A stretch of 33,442 nt of DNA, taken from Bacteroidota bacterium. GTDB taxonomy: Bacteria > Bacteroidota > Bacteroidia > Bacteroidales > JAAUTT01. Positions 21,384-30,860 of this stretch are shown here, piece by piece. The notes beneath the pieces were generated by a model. The model did not search any database. It had not been told where the DNA came from and saw only the letters and a list, made by a program, of their open reading frames with translations. The translations under genes and the position numbers were made by a program. Within the stretch, counting starts at the first letter, position 1, and the number at the start of each line of letters is the position of its first letter. The stretch lies in NCBI GenBank assembly GCA_021779665.1, contig JAJYAG010000064.1:1-33442 (forward strand), given 5' to 3'.

Positions 21384-22262
21384 CTAATATTCCCATAAAT
21401 CGTGTTCAACTTCAAACAAATATTGTTTAATTCTGTCAGCTTCGAGTAACGCTTCAATACCTGTTGCATATTCTTCGATACGACGGTTATCATAAACGTT
21501 TGTTTCTTTATAAATATAACCGGTGAATCTTCTTTGCATAAAAAGATCGTCATAAGATATTGGCTGGGCATCGTTGAATCTTGTGTAAACCGGATGGCTG
21601 GCAAGTAAGTTACGTGCTTCAGGATAATAAACCCAGAATACCTGTTTCATTGTCATTTCAGCTTCATCATCAGCTTCGGCAGTTCCGGTTTGCCCGGCAA
21701 CCTGGCGTGGGAAGAATCTGATAGGGCACAATCCCAAAATGCGCACCTGCATGGTGGAATGTTGCTTATCAAAAAACCATTTTTCCTTAATTAACAGCTT
21801 TTTAACCTGCTCAACCTGACGGTCGTTTTTGTAAGAAGTATCTTTGGGATTATTATTGGCATCAATTACCTGTGTTGTCTTTTGTACAGCATCAAGATTA
21901 ACATCAATATCCTCCTTGGTCATGGCAATTTTGAACTCATCATAAAGATTGTTTGGGTTATAAACCTGTAAGCCCTCATTATCTATACCGTACAAAAGAA
22001 GAGAAATTAAACTCATTCTTTCTCCGATGGGTTTGGTAGGAAAATAAAGCGGTAAATTGGCTTTTTCTCTCAGGTCAACCATTCTCCATACTATTTTCGA
22101 CCACATAACATCAGCTTCACGAACATCCGGATAAGGTATGGGTTTCTTGAACGGAATGTTAACCTTGTCATAAACCTCCTTCTTTACATCCTGCCCCACA
22201 ACCGAGCTAGAAACGATGCCTGACAGGACAACTCCTATCAATAACACAAAAATGTTTTTCAT
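21384..22262 (-). CDS. gldN: Type IX secretion system protein GldN/PorN
   Basis: Periplasmic component of the T9SS that joins GldK/PorK in the outer-membrane-associated ring. The 292-residue protein has a signal peptide (about 1-24, ending VVGQ) and the family pattern: an early VREADVMWSKIVWRMVDLREKANLPLYFP, then ISLLLYGIDNEGLQVYNP, a central acidic region, VRILGLCPIRFF and a C-terminal WVYYPEARNLLASHPVYTRFNDAQPISYDDLFMQRRFTGYIYKE-like region (several short conserved blocks, here about 205-260). It is the last gene of porP-gldKLMN, 18 bases after gldM, and is followed by the shared terminator. There is one copy only; no GldO paralogue follows, unlike Flavobacterium johnsoniae. Confidence 0.95.
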   Translation of the reverse strand: MKNIFVLLIGVVLSGIVSSSVVGQDVKKEVYDKVNIPFKKPIPYPDVREADVMWSKIVWRMVDLREKANLPLYFPTKPIGERMSLISLLLYGIDNEGLQVYNPNNLYDEFKIAMTKEDIDVNLDAVQKTTQVIDANNNPKDTSYKNDRQVEQVKKLLIKEKWFFDKQHSTMQVRILGLCPIRFFPRQVAGQTGTAEADDEAEMTMKQVFWVYYPEARNLLASHPVYTRFNDAQPISYDDLFMQRRFTGYIYKETNVYDNRRIEEYATGIEALLEADRIKQYLFEVEHDLWEY

Positions 22263-22280: not shown

Positions 22281-23903
22281 TTAATTAATTTTAAAAACTA
22301 ATGGTGATAACTCTCTCACGCCTCCATCAGGGCCAACAGCTTTGATGTCGAGGAAGTAAACTTTACTTCCTTTACCCAGTCCCTTAATTAAATCCTGTTG
22401 TTGCGGAGTAATTCTGTTTGATTTAGAGGTAATATCCTGAGAAAAACCTCCCACATTTGCCGACACAGTAAATTCAGTTACAGTATAACTCAATTTAAAG
22501 TCGAAGTTTTCCATATCTGCCTGCACGATCGACTGAAGGGCAAGCAAATTCTTTTCGATCACGCCACCTTTTCTTGAAGCAACTTTAGCAACCGGGTCAG
22601 GAACTCTCTTAACACGGAAATCCATATTCCCCATGGTTTTCCATTTCCCATCTATCTGAGCTTCGACAGAAACAATGGCATTACCCATCATTTTTGGCTT
22701 TACAATGTAACTACCACCTTGTTTGTTGATAGTTCCGTTTGTAATACTCGCGCGGATTTTATCTGCTGGCACACCTGCAACTGAAATATCAACAGGGTTG
22801 TCCACTCCTAAATAAAATACGTTCATAGCAGTCGGGGAAATTACTGCAGAAGCTTCTGCAACCTGATATTCGGCTTCGAAAGGGTAAAAAGATTCAACAC
22901 CTTCGGGTGATTTAATTTTAACCAAACCTCCCCATTTAATATTACCCTGTGCGCCTCCCATTCTTTCATATAATCCGCGACCATTAGGTTGGATTTTAAG
23001 CGTTTCATAATTTCCAACCATCTGATAAGTCACTGTACCATCAGGATTCTTCTTTTGTTCGTACCGACCAACATATACCTCCGGACTTTGAGTAGTATCA
23101 CGCGCTGAAATAAAAACTTCAGCCTGATATTGGTTACCTTTTAAAATGTAGTTGGAGTTGGTAGTAACAATTGCCTCCAGTTTGTTAAACTTAAATGAAC
23201 CTGCGTCAATCTGAGCCAGCAGATAGCGCACCATTTCCGATTCAACATTCCGTACATCGCCCTGCATTTTGGACAAAATGGTTGTTACTGCAATAAGAGG
23301 AATTTCGCCAAAGTGAGCCGATTCCCATGAATGCTTTACACCTTCAACCATAGGAGGATCGGCAGTATCAAGCAATTTCTCAATAGAAGCTCTTATGTCT
23401 TTATCATCAGGACTAATTAATGAGAGGCAATATTCTCTATGCTTGATATATCGTTCTTTAATTTCCTTACCTTTTCCATTGTTGAAGTCTCCAACCATAA
23501 CACGTGTTGGAACGTCGGTATTGTCTTTAGCTTCAACTTTAATACCTTCAAGCTTATCTTTGGTCTTTATTGCTTCTGCATCTTCACCATCAGCAGCTTT
23601 AACAAGATCTACCTTCACACTATGTATGAAGCTTATTAACTCTTCAGTTCTCTTTTTGATTTCGTTGGATTTCTGCATCCAAGGTCCAACCTTGTCAGGA
23701 TTTGACGCTGCCAACGTGCTCATTTCATCGTACAAGGTCTTATTTTTCTCTGCAAAGTTCTGATTTGTTACAGATAAACCCTCATCGACGAGTACAAAGG
23801 CATCAAGGACTTGTTTTGATACATTTAGTGCGAGCAAAGCTGTAAGCACCAAATACATCATCCCAATCATTTTCTGCCTGGGTGTTTCCTTACCGTGTCC
23901 CAT
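22281..23903 (-). CDS. gldM: Type IX secretion system motor protein GldM/PorM
   Basis: Forms, with GldL, the proton-driven motor of the T9SS and gliding machinery; it spans the inner membrane and reaches across the periplasm to the GldK/N ring. The 540-residue protein has a short cytoplasmic start, one membrane helix (about 10-32: KMIGMMYLVLTALLALNVS) and a long periplasmic part expected to fold into four domains (D1 helical, D2-D4 beta). Arg9 in ETPRQK corresponds to the conserved Arg9 implicated in coupling in F. johnsoniae GldM. The D1 helices (about 35-220) are clear from heptad-like spacing; the beta-rich remainder includes VGRYEQKKNPDGTVTYQMVGNYE-like blocks. It is 9 bases after gldL. 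Confidence 0.96.
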   Translation of the reverse strand: MGHGKETPRQKMIGMMYLVLTALLALNVSKQVLDAFVLVDEGLSVTNQNFAEKNKTLYDEMSTLAASNPDKVGPWMQKSNEIKKRTEELISFIHSVKVDLVKAADGEDAEAIKTKDKLEGIKVEAKDNTDVPTRVMVGDFNNGKGKEIKERYIKHREYCLSLISPDDKDIRASIEKLLDTADPPMVEGVKHSWESAHFGEIPLIAVTTILSKMQGDVRNVESEMVRYLLAQIDAGSFKFNKLEAIVTTNSNYILKGNQYQAEVFISARDTTQSPEVYVGRYEQKKNPDGTVTYQMVGNYETLKIQPNGRGLYERMGGAQGNIKWGGLVKIKSPEGVESFYPFEAEYQVAEASAVISPTAMNVFYLGVDNPVDISVAGVPADKIRASITNGTINKQGGSYIVKPKMMGNAIVSVEAQIDGKWKTMGNMDFRVKRVPDPVAKVASRKGGVIEKNLLALQSIVQADMENFDFKLSYTVTEFTVSANVGGFSQDITSKSNRITPQQQDLIKGLGKGSKVYFLDIKAVGPDGGVRELSPLVFKIN

Positions 23904-23912
23904 ATCTTAAGA

Positions 23913-24791
23913 CTACTTTTTGGGATTAATAACACTCATTGCAGCAAGCATATTCCCATAGATGGCGTTTAACGATGACAAATTCTGGCTTAACTGGGAT
24001 ATTTCCTGCTTGTATTTTTGAGTTTCTTCAGCAGATTGTTGCAGGTCATTCATTAATTTACCAAATCCGCTATACAATGACTGGGTTTCTTTCAAATGAT
24101 CGTTGGCTCCCCGGAGTTGCAGTTCATAAACAGCATTCAGGGCAGACAGGTTTTTATTGACATTTTCCAGTTGATTTCCGTATGCTTTGGAATTATCAGA
24201 TATAGCTGAAATATCTTGTTTCACAGTTTGGGCTAGTGAGCTGTACGATTGGGTTAATGTACTAACTGATTCCTGAATAGCCTGGTTGGATTGTACAAAA
24301 TTATTTGACAATTGTCCAACAGAGCTGGCAGCTGTTTTAACATTTGTAACGTACATGGAGGTAGCTGAAGCAGCTTCTGAAAGATCCGACAGATTAGCAG
24401 AAGCATGGCTGATTTTATCCAATGATTCGCCAAGTCGCTTGAAAGTTGCGGGCCCAACGTCCGCATTGGATACGAGATCTTCAAATTTTTCGAGCGTTAC
24501 CTGACCGGCTTTACCTGCTTCCTTGATACCCTCAACTTCATCAGGGTCAGTCATGCCGGCTAATTCCGGGTAAACCAATGTCCAGTCAAGTTCTTCGTGC
24601 AAAGGTTCAAAAGCAGAGAATGTAAAAATGACTGCTTCTACAATAAGACCAAGTGGTAAAAATATCTGCCAGCCATTCCAGTGCATAATCTTAAAGAGAG
24701 CACCGATAATAACAACAGCTGCACCTATACCGTAAAGCTTGGCCATAAAATTTTTCCAGCCAGAGCTTTGAACTAATTCGGAAATATTCAT
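23913..24791 (-). CDS. gldL: Type IX secretion system motor protein GldL/PorL
   Basis: Inner-membrane partner of GldM in the T9SS motor. The 292-residue protein has two adjacent membrane helices (about 16-35 and 41-61) near the N-terminus and a long cytoplasmic part rich in Ser, Gln, Asn and Ala with heptad spacing (about 100-285), typical of the family. Glu52 in LIVEAVIFTFSAFEP sits in the second helix and corresponds to the conserved glutamate proposed for proton coupling in F. johnsoniae. The first helix carries KIMHWNGWQ, another GldL hallmark. The gene is 34 bases after gldK and 9 bases before gldM. Motor residues on both partners are therefore intact. Confidence 0.95.
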   Translation of the reverse strand: MNISELVQSSGWKNFMAKLYGIGAAVVIIGALFKIMHWNGWQIFLPLGLIVEAVIFTFSAFEPLHEELDWTLVYPELAGMTDPDEVEGIKEAGKAGQVTLEKFEDLVSNADVGPATFKRLGESLDKISHASANLSDLSEAASATSMYVTNVKTAASSVGQLSNNFVQSNQAIQESVSTLTQSYSSLAQTVKQDISAISDNSKAYGNQLENVNKNLSALNAVYELQLRGANDHLKETQSLYSGFGKLMNDLQQSAEETQKYKQEISQLSQNLSSLNAIYGNMLAAMSVINPKK

Positions 24792-24825: not shown

Positions 24826-26160
24826 TTAATTGTTACCTCCAAGGTAAGCTCTTACACAACGAAATCCGATATAAGATTTGGTAGTGTCCTGATATTCGTA
24901 GGTACGTGTACCCACTTGCATGTAATAAGCAATGTCTTTCCAAGAACCTCCTCTAACCACTTTTCTTTTCATTACTGCAGGGTCGTCCGGGCGAGCTTCG
25001 TATTTATAATCGGGATTTAAGTCGTGAGTGAAAACGTATGCAGATTCGTCAAAAGCATTGGCAGTCCATTCGGCCACGTTTCCAGCCATATCATATAACC
25101 CCCATTCGTTAGGTTCGTAAGATCCAACGCGAACTGTATGTAAACCGCCATCATCAGCATAATTACCTCTCAAAGGTTTGAAGTTTGCAAGGAAGCAACC
25201 TTCTCTGTTACGGGTATACATACCTCCCCATGGGTACATTGAATTTTCAAGACCACCTCTGGCTGCATATTCCCATTCTGCCTCAATTGGTAAACGATAT
25301 TCCTGAACTGCAATTTCATCTTCTTTGGCCAAAGCATCATTCAGGAACTGAGTTCTCCAGATACAAAATGCACGGGCTTGCCTCCAGGATACGCCAACAA
25401 CAGGATAATCGTCGTAAGCAGGATGCCAGAAATAACTATTGGCAAGAGGCTCGTTATATGAATATGTAAAGTCGGCAACCCATGCTAATGTATCAGGATA
25501 AACATTGATTACATCGCGCATGATAAACGAAGAACGGTTCTGAACGGGAGTTCTTTCGCCAAGCGCATTGTAAACAAAACCTTCGTATTGTTTGGTACTG
25601 AAGTTATACCTGTTCGATTTTTTTGCTGCCTGCTGGAGGTCAACCCAAAAATATTCGTACATCAGTTTACGGGTGTCGATTTCTTTCCTTCTGTAGAATC
25701 TTTCATTTTCAGGAAGGTAAATTTCCTTCAACACTTCATTTTGTTCTTCATCCTGGTCGTCGATTTCAGTTTCCCAATTTAAGGTTGGAGGATCAATAGG
25801 ATTACCGTTTTCATCTTCTGAAATTAAAAATTCTTCATTAGATTCTCCCAGCATCCTTCTCATGATTGAATCACGGACCCAATATACAAACTGACGATAT
25901 TCGTTGTTTGTAATTTCTGTTTCATCCATCCAAAATGCGTCGACCGAAACTGTTTTGGCAAGTGTAGATTGCGCCCAGGCAACATCTTGATCACTGGGGC
26001 CCATGTTGAATTTACCTTGAGGAACAAAAACCATTCCGAAGGGATCAGGTTCAAAATACTTCTTTCTGCCTTCCACTCCGACAAGCTCTCCACTGCTACT
26101 CTTACTGCAGCTATTATTCAGGAGTACAAGGACTAAACCTACGAGAAGTAATCTTTTCAT
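24826..26160 (-). CDS. gldK: Type IX secretion system lipoprotein GldK/PorK
   Basis: Outer-membrane-associated lipoprotein that forms the periplasmic ring of the T9SS with GldN. The 444-residue protein has a lipoprotein signal ending NNSC (Cys18) and an FGE-sulfatase (formylglycine-generating-enzyme-like) fold: FGMVFVPQGKFNMG near the start, VSVDAFWMDETEITNNEYRQFVYW, YPVVGVSWRQARAFC, RLPIEAEWEYAARGG, NEWGLYDMAGNVAEWTANAF, RKVVRGGSWKD and the closing YIGFRCVRAY. An acidic insertion (about 105-160, including DENGNPIDPP and EIDDQDEEQNEVL) is of the kind that distinguishes GldK from catalytic FGE proteins. The role is structural rather than enzymatic in characterised systems. It follows porP by 81 bases. 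Confidence 0.95.
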   Translation of the reverse strand: MKRLLLVGLVLVLLNNSCSKSSSGELVGVEGRKKYFEPDPFGMVFVPQGKFNMGPSDQDVAWAQSTLAKTVSVDAFWMDETEITNNEYRQFVYWVRDSIMRRMLGESNEEFLISEDENGNPIDPPTLNWETEIDDQDEEQNEVLKEIYLPENERFYRRKEIDTRKLMYEYFWVDLQQAAKKSNRYNFSTKQYEGFVYNALGERTPVQNRSSFIMRDVINVYPDTLAWVADFTYSYNEPLANSYFWHPAYDDYPVVGVSWRQARAFCIWRTQFLNDALAKEDEIAVQEYRLPIEAEWEYAARGGLENSMYPWGGMYTRNREGCFLANFKPLRGNYADDGGLHTVRVGSYEPNEWGLYDMAGNVAEWTANAFDESAYVFTHDLNPDYKYEARPDDPAVMKRKVVRGGSWKDIAYYMQVGTRTYEYQDTTKSYIGFRCVRAYLGGNN

Positions 26161-26241: not shown

Positions 26242-27207
26242 TTATAAAAACCTAATACTTTTATATTTCTGCGGAGCCTTTTCCTTCTGGATTGAAAAAC
26301 AATATCCAACCATAAATTCGTGTGAACCGCCACTATTTTTAAACACATCGGAAATCGTAAAGTCGTAAGAATAACCAAGCTTTAATCCATTTGATAATTC
26401 TACGCCAATCATCCCGATAATAGCATCATTTATCCTGTAAGATAACCCTCCCCAAAACTTTTTATTATAAAGAACGGATGTATTCACATCTAATTGTGTT
26501 GTTTTACCATCGCTTTTTACGAAAACCGAAGGAATAAGTTCGAAAGAAGGATTAGGAAGTGTAATATTATATCCTGAAGTTAAATAATAGTGTCTTGCAA
26601 GAAAAGGTTTTCCCTTTTGATAGTCTAATTCAGCCTGTCTAATATGCGTTGAAGATAATCCTAAATAAAGTTTTTCAGTCCGATAAAATAAACCTGCTGC
26701 AAAGTCTACCACCATTGCACTTTCTTTTTTGTTAGGAATAGATGGATCGGTTTCAGGAGAGGTATAATTGCCGTTTTGGGGAACATACCACTCAGCATTG
26801 AGCGATTTGTTCATTAATTCAACACCAGCCCCGATTCCGAGCTTACCATCGCCGACATTAAGCCGGTAGGCATAGCTGAAATTCAAGCCGATATCTCTGT
26901 CATATCCCCATTTATCATTCATAACTCCTAAAGCTATTCCACTGTTAAGTTTAAATGGTTTAATTGCTGCGTTAACATTGAAGAGTGATGTAGAAGGTGC
27001 GCCTTTAAAACCCACCCATTGTTCCCTGTGAAGAAGGGTTGCACAAATTGCATCATTACTTCCAGCATAGCCCGGGTTTATTGCCATGGAATTGAACATA
27101 TTCTGGCTGAACTGCGGATCCTGCTGAGCTTTTACAGCAAAAATGGAAGTTAGAAGAATCAGTGCAAAAACTATACGTTTTTTCTGGGTAACAAAATTCA
27201 CTGTCAT
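26242..27207 (-). CDS. porP: PorP/SprF family type IX secretion system outer-membrane protein
   Basis: Outer-membrane barrel of the T9SS; PorP/SprF proteins help present or anchor secreted partners at the cell surface. The 321-residue protein has a signal peptide (about 1-28, ending VKAQ), then the family signature QQDPQFSQNMFNSMAINPGYAGS and the early HREQWVGFKGAPST. Amphipathic strands continue to a C-terminal EFMVGYCFSIQKEK. Its position directly upstream of gldK matches the porP-porK-porL-porM-porN order of Porphyromonas gingivalis, so I take it as the system's core PorP and not as one of the many dispersed PorP/SprF paralogues. A promoter-like -7 box lies 44 bases upstream. The tail KAPQKYKSIRFL is short and basic. 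Confidence 0.93.
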   Translation of the reverse strand: MTVNFVTQKKRIVFALILLTSIFAVKAQQDPQFSQNMFNSMAINPGYAGSNDAICATLLHREQWVGFKGAPSTSLFNVNAAIKPFKLNSGIALGVMNDKWGYDRDIGLNFSYAYRLNVGDGKLGIGAGVELMNKSLNAEWYVPQNGNYTSPETDPSIPNKKESAMVVDFAAGLFYRTEKLYLGLSSTHIRQAELDYQKGKPFLARHYYLTSGYNITLPNPSFELIPSVFVKSDGKTTQLDVNTSVLYNKKFWGGLSYRINDAIIGMIGVELSNGLKLGYSYDFTISDVFKNSGGSHEFMVGYCFSIQKEKAPQKYKSIRFL

Positions 27208-27398: not shown

Positions 27399-28541
27399 TC
27401 AACTCATCTTTTGCAGCATCTTCCACCATCTCTCAGGAATATCCTGGGCAACAGCACGTTCATAATCTTGTAAAGAACAGGAAATAATTAATTTATCGTC
27501 GGGTTTAACAGGGACTTCAACCCACCAGCGATTGCTTTTATTACTCCGGTAAAACACAAATTCCTGCGAAAGCTGGTTAACGTGTATTTCGAACCTTGTA
27601 AAATCCGATTTGTTTATCTGAGGTGATTCAATGATTTGATTTATCAGCCCTTCTATAAAGTACCAGATGATCTGGCTTGCCAGCATACAACTGATATTTC
27701 TTCCCGGATCGGTTCCTATGTCGTAAACCCCAAAGGCCTGAACTTTATTGCTTAAACCGGCATAAAAACTTAACTGGCATGCTTCCTCGCCTGTAAAGCC
27801 ATTTGGCGACTTAATGAGCGACCCCGGCGAATCGGCATACTTCACCGAATTCAAGCTCAGGTTAACAATTTCAGCATCCCTGATAACTGGTTCGAATTCC
27901 TTAAGACCTGAACGCACAATTCCTAAACGGAAAGCATCAAAGTATAAATCATCCAGCAGATCAACTTCCTTTTGAGATACATAAAACGTTTGATACCCTA
28001 AGTTAGTGTAGTTAAAAAGATACTCGCTGTTGCGGAAGATCACCTCATCGAGGGTTATTCTGTCCGAGAGGCGATCCCCCTCGAATAAAAGATTGATATG
28101 CGAATCGATATGGATAAGACCAGCTGGCCTTTTATTTGAGACAAACCCAAGAAAGTTTCCAAGGCCCAAATCGGAAGTACTGCCCAATAAAACTGTAACT
28201 ATCTTTTTCTGATGAAGCTGGGCAACCACCTCCCCTACAGCAAAGGCTGTGTCCTTAGGAGATTTACCCCTGATGATATTCCCAATATCGATAATTTTAA
28301 AACTCTGGGAGGATTTTGAAAGAAAAGCCAGATCCTTGCGAATCTCGTAAGCAATAAGATATTCCTCGCTTTCTTCTTTAAAATCTGACTGGGGTAATCC
28401 AATCAAAGCAACCCTATAAGAGGACCAATCGAAGGATTCGTTAAAATTGTAAGCGGTGATATTCGTTCCAAGATTACTATCCTTAAGCAAAATTGAGTGA
28501 TAAAAATCGCTCACAGGTTTAACAAAACCTTCTATTTCCAT
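27399..28541 (-). CDS. Arginase/formimidoylglutamase-fold protein with degraded metal site (predicted pseudoenzyme)
   Basis: The 380-residue protein has the ureohydrolase (arginase, agmatinase, formimidoylglutamase) layout, but its dinuclear manganese site is mostly gone. The GGxH motif reads GSTSD (120-124), so the first His is lost. The DAHxD motif reads DSHIN (146-150), keeping Asp146 and His148 but changing the last Asp to Asn. The SxDxD motif reads SLNSV (229-233), losing both Asp. The surrounding fold is well kept (VTVLLG, LIHIDSHINL, then DSPGSLIKSPNGFTGEEA, where active enzymes have the PG..APnpnGLt-like loop). It starts 6 bases after topA and sits upstream of porP-gldKLMN. Automated pipelines would probably call it hutG; I reject that function. 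A binding or regulatory role is inference. Confidence 0.85.
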   Translation of the reverse strand: MEIEGFVKPVSDFYHSILLKDSNLGTNITAYNFNESFDWSSYRVALIGLPQSDFKEESEEYLIAYEIRKDLAFLSKSSQSFKIIDIGNIIRGKSPKDTAFAVGEVVAQLHQKKIVTVLLGSTSDLGLGNFLGFVSNKRPAGLIHIDSHINLLFEGDRLSDRITLDEVIFRNSEYLFNYTNLGYQTFYVSQKEVDLLDDLYFDAFRLGIVRSGLKEFEPVIRDAEIVNLSLNSVKYADSPGSLIKSPNGFTGEEACQLSFYAGLSNKVQAFGVYDIGTDPGRNISCMLASQIIWYFIEGLINQIIESPQINKSDFTRFEIHVNQLSQEFVFYRSNKSNRWWVEVPVKPDDKLIISCSLQDYERAVAQDIPERWWKMLQKMS

Positions 28542-28547
28542 AAATGT

Positions 28548-30860
28548 CTATTTCTTTTTCTTTTTGGGTTTAACCTCTGTGTTTTTAATTATTTCTCTGC
28601 ACTCTTCCAAAGTAAGAGAAGCAGCATTTTTAGATTTCGGTATTTTGAAGTTATCCTTTTTGTAGGAAATGTATGGACCAAAACGTCCATTAAGAACAAG
28701 AATATCCTTATCCTCAGGAAAGGTCTTAATCGTTTTATTCTGATCGTCTTCCCGCTTTTTATGGATAAGCTCCACAGCCCGCTCGGCATTAATGGTGTAA
28801 GGGTCGTCAACACCTGCTTTTAATGAAATGAATTTACTGTTGTGTACGATATAAGGGCCAAAACGACCAATACCAGCGTTTATATCCTTTCCTTCATAAT
28901 CGCCAACTTTACGAGGAAGTTTAAAAAGCTCCAAAGCTTCCTGAAGAGTTATAGTTTCAATGCGCTGACCTTTTAATAAACTTGCAAATTTCGGTTTTTC
29001 CTCATCGCTGGCTTCTCCAATCTGAGCCATGGGTCCAAACCGCCCAATTTTAACCAGAACGGGTTTACCACTTACAGGATCAGTTCCAAGATTTCGTTCA
29101 CCAACATTCCTTTCTGATTTCGCAATGGTTTCTTCAACTTTTGAATGGAAAGGATTATAGAATTTATCCAGCATCTCAGTCCACTTTAGTTTCCCTTCTG
29201 CAATTTCGTCGAATTGCTTTTCGACACTTGCCGTAAAGTTATAATCCAAAATATTTTGAAAATAGCTTACAAGGAAATCGTTTACAACCATGCCAATATC
29301 GTTCGGGAAAAGCTTTGATTTCTCCGCTCCCGTTATTTCTGTTTTTACAGCTTCTTCAATATTATTATTCTTAAGCGTAAATACCTTGTATTTCCGTTCA
29401 GTTCCTTCTCTGTCTTCCTTAACAATATAGCCTCTCTGCTGAATAGTTGAAATTGTTGGTGCGTAAGTAGACGGACGGCCAATTCCCAATTCCTCAAGCT
29501 TCTTAACAAGGCTTGCTTCAGTATAACGCGGAGGATGATATGTAAATCTCTCGGTAGCATTAATAGCCTTTAAATCCAGCACCTGACCAACATTCAGAGG
29601 AGGAAGTATTTTAGTGTTCTCTTCTTCGTTTTCGTCATCAGTCGACTCAAGATAAACTTTCAGGAAGCCATCGAATTTTATTACTTCTCCTACTGCTTCA
29701 AACTTTTCTTTGGTAGTTGAAATATCAATGATTGCTGTAGTTTTCTCAAGTGCCGCATCACTCATTTGTGACGCGATAGTCCGCTTCCAGATAAGTTCGT
29801 AAAGCTTTTTCTCCTGAGGAGACCCATCAATGGAAATATTCTCCATGTAAGTGGGCCGAATAGCCTCATGCGCTTCCTGAGCACCTTTCGATTTTGTTTT
29901 ATATTGTCGCGGGAATGAATATTTATCTCCATATTCCTTAATAATGGTTGCCTTAGCCATACTGACAGCCGTTTCGGAAAGGTTAACCGAGTCAGTTCTC
30001 ATGTAGGTAATATTTCCCGACTCATATAATTTCTGAGCTATGGACATGGTTTGAGCAACCGAATACCCGAGCTTCCTGCTTGCTTCCTGCTGAAGAGTGG
30101 AAGTTGTAAAAGGTGCAGCAGGCGATTTTTTCGTGGGTTTGGTAATAACATCGGCTACCTTAAAGCTGGCATTCTTGCATTTTCCTAAAAACTGCAGTGT
30201 TTGCTCCGAATTATCGATCCGCTGGGGTAATTCAGCAACAAGAGTTGACTTTTTAGGATCGTCGAGCAGAAAATTAGCCATAACCCGGAAGGACGACGTA
30301 CTTTTATAAGCCAGAATTTCTCTCTCGCGTTCGCAAATTAACCTCACAGCAACCGACTGAACCCTTCCGGCAGAAAGACTTGGCTTTACTTTTCGCCATA
30401 AAATGGGAGAAATTTCATATCCAACCATCCGGTCGAGCAATCTTCGTGCTTGTTGTGCGTTTACTAGATTATCATCAATAAACCTCGGATTTTCTATGGC
30501 TTTTAAAATTGCATCTTTGGTAATTTCATTAAAAACAATGCGCCGGGTTTTTTCTTTTTTCAAACCAAGCACCTCGTACAAATGCCATGAAATAGCTTCT
30601 CCTTCGCGGTCTTCATCGGAGGCGAGCCAAACCATACCGGCTTCCTTAACCATTTTTTTGAGTTCTGACACGAGTTTTTTCTTATCCTCGGGAATAACAT
30701 ACAAAGGCTGATAGTTATGCTGCAAGTCAATACTCAACGTATTTTTTTCCAAATCGCGAATATGCCCGTAACTGGACTTAACAACAAAACCCTTTCCCAG
30801 GAACTTCTCAATGGTTTGTGCCTTTGCAGGAGACTCAACAATTACAAGGTTTTCGATCAT
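28548..30860 (-). CDS. topA: DNA topoisomerase I (type IA)
   Basis: Relaxes negatively supercoiled DNA by a single-strand passage mechanism. The 770-residue protein has an N-terminal Toprim domain with Glu9 in IVESPAKA and Asp82/Asp84 in ASDEDREGEA, the VNAQQARRLLDRMVGYEISP block, RVQSVAVRLICERE, and the active-site Tyr286 in GNITYMRTDS. The C-terminus has three RFGP-containing repeats (about residues 610-755: KIGRFGPMAQIG, GIGRFGPYIVH, NGRFGPYISY) instead of the Cys4 zinc fingers of E. coli TopA, as is usual in Bacteroidota, and ends in a poly-lysine tail. It is the first gene of a unit with the arginase-like gene (6-base gap) and diverges from the PBP gene across 116 bases. Confidence 0.97.
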   Translation of the reverse strand: MIENLVIVESPAKAQTIEKFLGKGFVVKSSYGHIRDLEKNTLSIDLQHNYQPLYVIPEDKKKLVSELKKMVKEAGMVWLASDEDREGEAISWHLYEVLGLKKEKTRRIVFNEITKDAILKAIENPRFIDDNLVNAQQARRLLDRMVGYEISPILWRKVKPSLSAGRVQSVAVRLICEREREILAYKSTSSFRVMANFLLDDPKKSTLVAELPQRIDNSEQTLQFLGKCKNASFKVADVITKPTKKSPAAPFTTSTLQQEASRKLGYSVAQTMSIAQKLYESGNITYMRTDSVNLSETAVSMAKATIIKEYGDKYSFPRQYKTKSKGAQEAHEAIRPTYMENISIDGSPQEKKLYELIWKRTIASQMSDAALEKTTAIIDISTTKEKFEAVGEVIKFDGFLKVYLESTDDENEEENTKILPPLNVGQVLDLKAINATERFTYHPPRYTEASLVKKLEELGIGRPSTYAPTISTIQQRGYIVKEDREGTERKYKVFTLKNNNIEEAVKTEITGAEKSKLFPNDIGMVVNDFLVSYFQNILDYNFTASVEKQFDEIAEGKLKWTEMLDKFYNPFHSKVEETIAKSERNVGERNLGTDPVSGKPVLVKIGRFGPMAQIGEASDEEKPKFASLLKGQRIETITLQEALELFKLPRKVGDYEGKDINAGIGRFGPYIVHNSKFISLKAGVDDPYTINAERAVELIHKKREDDQNKTIKTFPEDKDILVLNGRFGPYISYKKDNFKIPKSKNAASLTLEECREIIKNTEVKPKKKKK

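Follow-up and report, generated by a model that had tools for sequence, protein, structure and literature searches.

The arginase fold without a two-metal centre is known in eukaryotes from the metal-free arginase-like protein of Trypanosoma brucei, which has this feature in common with the protein analysed here. A comparable case is MetCb, a metal-free ureohydrolase pseudoenzyme that, according to the excerpted text of PMC11271267, has lost five of the six metal ligands and binds an active partner. Two further described systems bear on the gene neighbourhood. GldL of F. johnsoniae has a cytosolic domain, as indicated by the domain limits in an excerpt of PMC8986121, and PorX binds the GldL cytosolic domain in the two-hybrid tests described in an excerpt of PMC10951265. 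Within open-licence papers, we found no description of the gene family that is the subject of this work.

The protein is encoded in the window, by which we mean the whole stretch of 33,442 nucleotides that was analysed. The features of the locus are as follows.

27399..28541, minus strand: open reading frame of the putative arginase-fold pseudoenzyme, 380 amino acids, ATG start, stop codon included
27633..28484, minus strand: predicted arginase-fold domain, residues 20-303, from the AlphaFold2 model and the VIA alignment to 4mxr
28170..28184, minus strand: GSTSD, residues 120-124, at the place of GGxH, with the ligand H replaced by S123 (alignment)
28092..28106, minus strand: DSHIN, residues 146-150, at the place of DAHxD, with D146 and H148 kept and the third ligand D replaced by N150 (alignment)
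27849..27863, minus strand: NLSLN, residues 227-231, which is SxDxD in the correct register, the ligand places being S229 and N231 (alignment)
27402..27632, minus strand: added C-terminal domain, residues 304-380, predicted as four strands followed by two helices (model and alignment)
28548..30860, minus strand: topA, DNA topoisomerase I, 6 bases upstream of the reading frame (profile match)
26242..27207, minus strand: porP, a PorP/SprF-type T9SS membrane protein (profile match)
24826..26160, minus strand: gldK (profile match)
23913..24791, minus strand: gldL, motor subunit (profile match)
22281..23903, minus strand: gldM (profile match)
21384..22262, minus strand: gldN (profile match)

The reading frame is intact, as a preliminary description of the locus had stated. 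A gap of 191 bases separates it from porP, which is followed by gldK, gldL, gldM and gldN, all on one strand. The core genes of the T9SS therefore adjoin the frame, which is the linkage looked for in a component of this secretion machine.

The sequence scores of the window protein indicate a homology to enzymes that is detectable, yet lies under the curated cut-offs. Only sub-cut-off enzyme models were matched in NCBIfam and Pfam, namely the Pfam Arginase family PF00491 with 20.7 bits, below the gathering score of 22, and the NCBIfam hutG model TIGR01227 with 31.1 bits, far below the cut-off of 229.15. A sequence search of the PDB with the window protein returned nothing relevant, the best hit (E 0.57) being an antibody fragment. 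An AlphaFold2 model computed from a 30-sequence alignment reached a pLDDT of 89.9 and a pTM of 0.92. Its best Foldseek match was the B. subtilis formimidoylglutamase 3m1r (E 6.6e-15), and its best VIA match was the T. cruzi formiminoglutamase 4mxr (Z 31.0, rmsd 2.3, 272 residues, 17% identity). The metformin hydrolase structures 8x3g, 8snf and 8ryi were also among the VIA matches. The predicted model thus supports the arginase fold that had been proposed from the sequence, a three-layer alpha-beta-alpha arrangement with formimidoylglutamases as its nearest relatives. These enzymes (HutG; 3m1r, 4mxr and, from V. cholerae, 1xfk) share the fold over window residues 20-303, and hutG is the best sequence model. 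Unlike them, the window protein lacks four of the six metal ligands, carries an added C-terminal domain and scores 31 bits, against the cut-off of 229, on the hutG model. Other members of the family resemble models of metabolic enzymes as well (formimidoylglutamase, agmatinase), and 29 of 30 matched the hutG model at E<=0.01. With the score of the window protein so far under the cut-off, the resemblance of this gene to hutG is misleading, as had been suspected.

We compared the metal-binding residues in an alignment of 197 rows, in which 23 conventional relatives stand beside 174 full-length family members, the window protein being one of these and its relatives the other 173. The family profile matched 209 loci, and in 181 of them the match was full-length, that is, it extended from the N-terminal part into the C-terminal domain; removal of eight exact duplicates and addition of the window protein gave the 174 members. 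The loci omitted from the ligand count are L083 and L086, which were matched in the C-terminal part only, and L176, L180 and L191, which are cut by contig ends. At the six places where the enzymes have H, D, H, D, D and D, the window protein has S123, D146, H148, N150, S229 and N231. Two of the six ligands are kept, and they are D146 and H148, the same two that the preliminary description had named. Its reading of the motifs was right about the loss itself; the SxDxD segment, however, had been placed two residues off, as SLNSV (229-233) instead of N227-L-S229-L-N231, which leaves the outcome unchanged.

The loss of ligands extends over the whole family. We looked for a homologue that keeps all six ligands and found none among the 174 members, the maximum being four (27 members); three ligands are kept in 122 members, two in 9, one in 15 and none in a single member. 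In the same alignment, the 23 conventional relatives retain six ligands (19 rows) or five (4 rows), which indicates that the loss in the family is more than chance. As judged from the alignment, it is also non-random. In arginase numbering, D124 is kept in 160 of the 174 members, D232 in 155 and D128 in 149, and all three are kept in 144. Place 101 holds Q in 127 members and H in 20, and 117 members have E at the place equivalent to E277. The second half-site, in contrast, is complete in none, with H126 kept in 14 members and D234 in 9. We take D124, D128 and D232, following the rat arginase assignment, to be the carboxylates of one metal site, the other site having been dismantled. Because the carboxylates of one site are kept, mostly with Q in place of H at position 101, the retained half-site of most members may still hold a single cation or charged ligand.

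These residues are the basis of one alternative explanation, in which the protein would be a one-metal or cation-dependent enzyme or a ligand sensor whose half-site (Q/H101, D124, D128 and D232) binds a metal or a guanidinium-type ligand. The three carboxylates conserved in 144 members could reflect residual one-metal chemistry, and the N found instead of H at place 101 in 2 of the 23 conventional relatives is in line with such a site. The loss of most of the second half-site speaks against it, as does the retention of the gene in the window and in some other genomes although the first half-site has been lost there too. We consider this explanation rather unlikely. In the window protein and in its genus mate L005 the D124/D128/D232 half-site is gone, and the window protein has decayed beyond most of the family. 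Even H148 is not clearly an inherited ligand, since its place holds H in 14 of 174 members and T in L005, the commonest residues being R (36) and K (35). The two conventional relatives with N at the first ligand place, L110 and L112, are otherwise complete ureohydrolases; judging by its title, the T. cruzi entry 4myn (N114H variant) would have a similar N.

The family carries an extra C-terminal domain of approximately 75 residues, which all 23 conventional relatives lack. Among the 209 loci, 23 end their match to the family profile at position 307 or earlier, and 186 reach at least position 351 of 386 (including L180 and L191, both cut by contig ends), so that the domain separates the family cleanly from the conventional enzymes. 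The tree gave the same division, with 47 family representatives on one side of a branch and the 23 conventional rows on the other (SH-aLRT 98). Family-specific residues that are near-invariant occur in the arginase domain (R205, E217, P218, R221, C255, G271 and Q290) and in the C-terminal domain (F330, W339, W340, C355 and Y360), where P369 is nearly invariant too. For the C-terminal domain (304-380), modelled on its own, Foldseek returned no match at E<=0.001 and VIA found no clear structural relative, with a best Z of 4.0. A profile search with the domain gave a best E of 0.099, nothing convincing, and no Pfam family drew matches from more than 2 of 30 members, the best single E of 0.0016 coming from one member. 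WRKY, WGR, PliC/MliC and PipX were among the weak structural matches to this domain; with Z at 4.0 or below, we make no claim of kinship with any of them.

The open reading frames and the substitution rates bear on the maintenance of the gene. Full-length open frames were found in 181 of the 186 family loci, and of the remaining five, three are cut by contig ends and two were matched in the C-terminal part only. In 37 of the 40 closest family pairs omega was 0.006-0.068, with dS saturated in the other three and the window's species in no pair; close family pairs are under strong purifying selection. Taken together, the sequences indicate that the family is a maintained and not a decaying gene. 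Decay into a pseudogene would account for the lost ligands and for the window copy being more degenerate than most of the family, but it is hard to reconcile with the full-length frames, with the low omega elsewhere in the family and with the family-specific invariant residues, and we give it next to no credence.

The explanation that we favor, and consider rather likely, is that these proteins form a class-wide family of cytosolic pseudo-ureohydrolases that have been kept as non-hydrolytic binding or scaffold proteins. In a formimidoylglutamase-like ancestor, one of the two metal half-sites would have disappeared and the small C-terminal domain would have been added; strong purifying selection would since have preserved the product for binding or scaffolding and not for hydrolysis. 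In most members the D124/D128/D232 half-site, with Q or H at 101, may hold one cation or small ligand; in the window's lineage this half-site is gone too, which would leave the function to the fold and the C-terminal domain. Because the metal-binding residues are lost and the relatives are nevertheless kept class-wide, often beside the secretion machine, the family probably works by binding rather than by catalysis. A function of the binding type fits the combination of a lost two-metal site and strong constraint, and MetCb offers a precedent for it.

We then determined the distribution of the gene in three samples of genomes. It was matched in 106 of 149 genomes of the order sample and in 356 of 375 genomes of the class sample. 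The class matches comprise 345 clear ones (E 2.2e-31 or better) and 11 weaker ones (E 7.5e-22 to 7.8e-4); only the former were taken as clear, because conventional enzymes of the class score 39-99 bits on the family profile, and the 11 weaker matches may represent fragments or genes of the conventional kind. A match was also obtained in 152 of 395 genomes of the phylum sample. Twenty weaker phylum matches were fetched, 17 from outside the class and three that were second matches within it, and all 20 were conventional by their ligands and without the C-terminal domain. A scan of viral contigs with the window protein found no relative. The presence of matches in 356 of 375 class genomes, together with an omega of 0.006-0.068, supports the proposal of the preliminary description that the gene is kept for something other than urea-type hydrolysis. 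The family is old, constrained wherever constraint could be measured, and present in most sampled genomes of the class, and its resemblance to enzymes would have hidden a conserved role in this class.

The position of the gene beside porP and gldK raises the possibility of a cytosolic protein that regulates the T9SS/gliding motor or helps to assemble it, docking on the cytosolic domain of GldL much as PorX does. We examined the co-occurrence of the gene with the T9SS by counting genomes as GldM-positive at E<=0.001, which gave 136 of 149 genomes in the order sample (134 over the cut-off) and 358 of 375 in the class sample (349 over the cut-off); the two samples overlap. In the order, the gene was found in none of the 8 genomes without GldM and SprA and in 106 of the 141 genomes with either. 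In the class, GldM or SprA occurs in 368 genomes, of which 343 have a clear match; of the 7 genomes that have neither protein, 2 do. These raw counts look convincing and speak for a T9SS regulator. They are offset by the absence of the gene from 31 of the 136 GldM-positive genomes of the order, which shows that it is not present wherever the T9SS is. None of these 31 genomes has a family match better than E 0.1 in its fetched loci, although 4 of the loci are shorter than 8 kb and some of the absences may be assembly gaps.

On a tree of TopA, the co-occurrence signal was lost. A single clade of 17 rows (SH-aLRT 99) lacks the gene, with the T9SS present in 12 of these rows and absent from 5. Because the clade lacks the gene irrespective of the T9SS, much of the co-occurrence signal may be one event. 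Four independent pairs (starred branches) could be formed on the tree, and they gave no support for co-loss, on average 0.8 of them differing in the gene; four pairs are too few for significance. The pairs test covered 54 of the 60 tree rows, since the T9SS state of the other six was untested or doubtful; family f122 contributed two rows that were assumed to be T9SS-positive, and G505 is not on the tree. Outside the 17-row clade, the gene is absent from the T9SS-positive genomes G081, G015, G055 and G057 and from all three genomes of family f129. In G081 and G015 (L227 and L231), topA and the gld genes are there and the gene is cleanly absent from between them.

The reverse case, the gene without a detected T9SS, was also found. 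In G505, which is 99% complete, the gene is intact; the searches detected neither GldM nor SprA, and GldK scored only below its cut-off. G592 likewise has the gene and no detected GldM, SprA or over-cut-off GldK, but we do not rely on it, since the contig breaks off a short way from the gene and all three proteins are present in its genus mate G554. The absences in T9SS-bearing genomes and the case of G505 indicate that not every T9SS requires the gene and that the gene can persist after the T9SS is lost. The suggestion that the loss of ligands tracks the T9SS was not supported, as the loss is family-wide and is seen also in G505 and at loci where no T9SS gene was found nearby. Overall, a T9SS-specific reading is only weakly supported. 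In family f120, to which G505 (L236) belongs, its genus mate G150 (L238) has GldM and GldK and no SprA, G505 itself has none over the cut-off, and 11 other genomes have SprA, which looks like a stepwise loss of the T9SS in the genus of G150 and G505.

To describe the gene neighborhood, we counted neighbors at 178 distinct loci, 164 of which were testable on each side. The most frequent neighbor found for the family is topA, which lies directly upstream in 112 of the 164 loci with a median gap of 17 bases, the gap being 30 bases or less in 64 of the 112. Directly downstream we found porP in 53 loci and gldK in 27, that is, either of them in 80 of 164, which is a point in favor of a T9SS regulator; the 27 loci with gldK have the order topA, arginase-fold gene, gldK. 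The preliminary description had named such an order and suggested an old synteny, and these counts bear out the age of the arrangement and show the order named there to be right in kind. Several families, on the other hand, have no T9SS gene near the family gene in the stretch fetched, which argues against a T9SS regulator. All absences of neighbors rest on single-sequence searches with the window's proteins, and the flanks sometimes measured only 1.4 kb, so that diverged neighbors may have been missed.

The close linkage to topA allows for a housekeeping factor of the topA neighborhood, with the T9SS genes as mere neighbors. The short distance to topA in the 112 loci would fit such a factor, as would the persistence of the gene in G505 and the two loci L089 and L090 of family f122, in which topA is adjacent and neither gldK nor porP was found in the fetched 14 kb. 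This possibility has to accommodate the 52 of 164 loci that have no adjacent topA (none or another gene in 48, topA farther away in 4), including L068 and L100, where porP-gldK is kept and no topA was found upstream in the stretch fetched. In addition, a search of 30 genomes, nearly all of which are without the arginase-fold gene, detected TopA in 26. We regard a housekeeping factor of topA as unlikely. L227 and L231, in which topA lies directly upstream of gldK or porP and the arginase-fold gene is missing, show that topA can adjoin the gld genes without it.

The N-terminus of the window protein is informative about its location. Its highest N-terminal hydropathy is 0.95, compared with 2.48-3.54 in PorP, GldK, GldL, GldM and GldN, and the hydrophobic N-terminal segment present in PorP, GldK and GldN is absent from it, leaving no export signal. 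A few members have a more hydrophobic N-terminus (2.32 in L087 and 1.94 in L093), with start codons that are uncertain. A protein without a hydrophobic N-terminus is expected to have a cytosolic partner, and PorP, GldK and GldN are poor candidates because they carry such segments. The contact with PorP or with GldK/GldN that the preliminary description had suggested is thus topologically unlikely. Within the gene cluster, the GldL cytosolic domain or TopA is a possible partner.

The binding of PorX to GldL indicates that a docking place of this kind exists, and it is a further argument for a T9SS regulator. PorX, as described in the excerpt of PMC10951265, resembles the window protein only in a possible mode, that of a cytosolic protein acting on the T9SS motor. 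It is an unrelated protein with CheY-like and PglZ domains, and its binding comes from two-hybrid tests, whereas the window protein is known from its sequence and model. We also calculated correlations of evolutionary distances over 29 loci and the window with the other neighbors controlled, an exploratory analysis without a significance test. The highest value was obtained for GldL (0.47), followed by TopA (0.36), GldN (0.10), GldK (-0.07) and GldM (-0.46). The value for GldL speaks for a T9SS regulator; the negative value for GldM and the correlation of 0.41 between GldL and TopA indicate that the distances do not discriminate. Weighing the neighborhood, the raw counts and GldL against the gene-less clade, the independent pairs, the scattered absences, G505 and these mixed correlations, we view a T9SS regulator as possible but doubtful. 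If the protein does serve the secretion machine, we would tentatively name the GldL cytosolic domain as the most plausible docking place. A more detailed version appears improbable to us. In it, an unrecognised family of the Bacteroidia, with the arginase fold fused to the unclassified C-terminal domain, would act in the cytosol as a regulator and relay a small-molecule or cation signal to the GldL-GldM motor, the neighboring topA and gld genes being its ancestral cluster. If the family does act on the GldL-GldM motor, it would provide a cytosolic input to secretion and gliding; if it is not linked to the motor, it is still a conserved protein with a ready genetic test.

The comparison with MetCb introduces the last alternative, in which the protein would be the inactive half of a two-subunit ureohydrolase, in the way that MetCb accompanies MetCa. 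The window protein is, like MetCb, a ureohydrolase-fold pseudoenzyme that has lost most of its metal ligands, and MetCb acts as a protein binder (excerpt of PMC11271267). The same source describes MetCb as lacking five of six ligands and as having an extended C-terminal loop where it meets the active partner. The family profile was matched two to four times in many genomes of the class (not counted), and further arginase-family genes are accordingly common among carriers. However, the active paralogue of MetCb is encoded beside it, whereas a PF00491 search of the window's genome (96.6% complete) finds only this gene, so that a partner there would be something else. In the order sample, a second, weak match was found in 3 of 106 carriers (G056, G093 and G119), in a search with the window protein that would miss distant paralogues. 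We consider an inactive ureohydrolase subunit very unlikely and retain the binding or scaffold protein as the preferred explanation.

Two minor observations were made on the way through the loci. In three members from family f124 (L083, L085 and L086) the N-terminal arginase part is so diverged that portions of the ligand region fail to align, and the C-terminal part is better kept. The GldM model was matched four times in the window's genome (G000) and nine times in G147, which suggests GldM-like paralogues outside the gldKLMN cluster.
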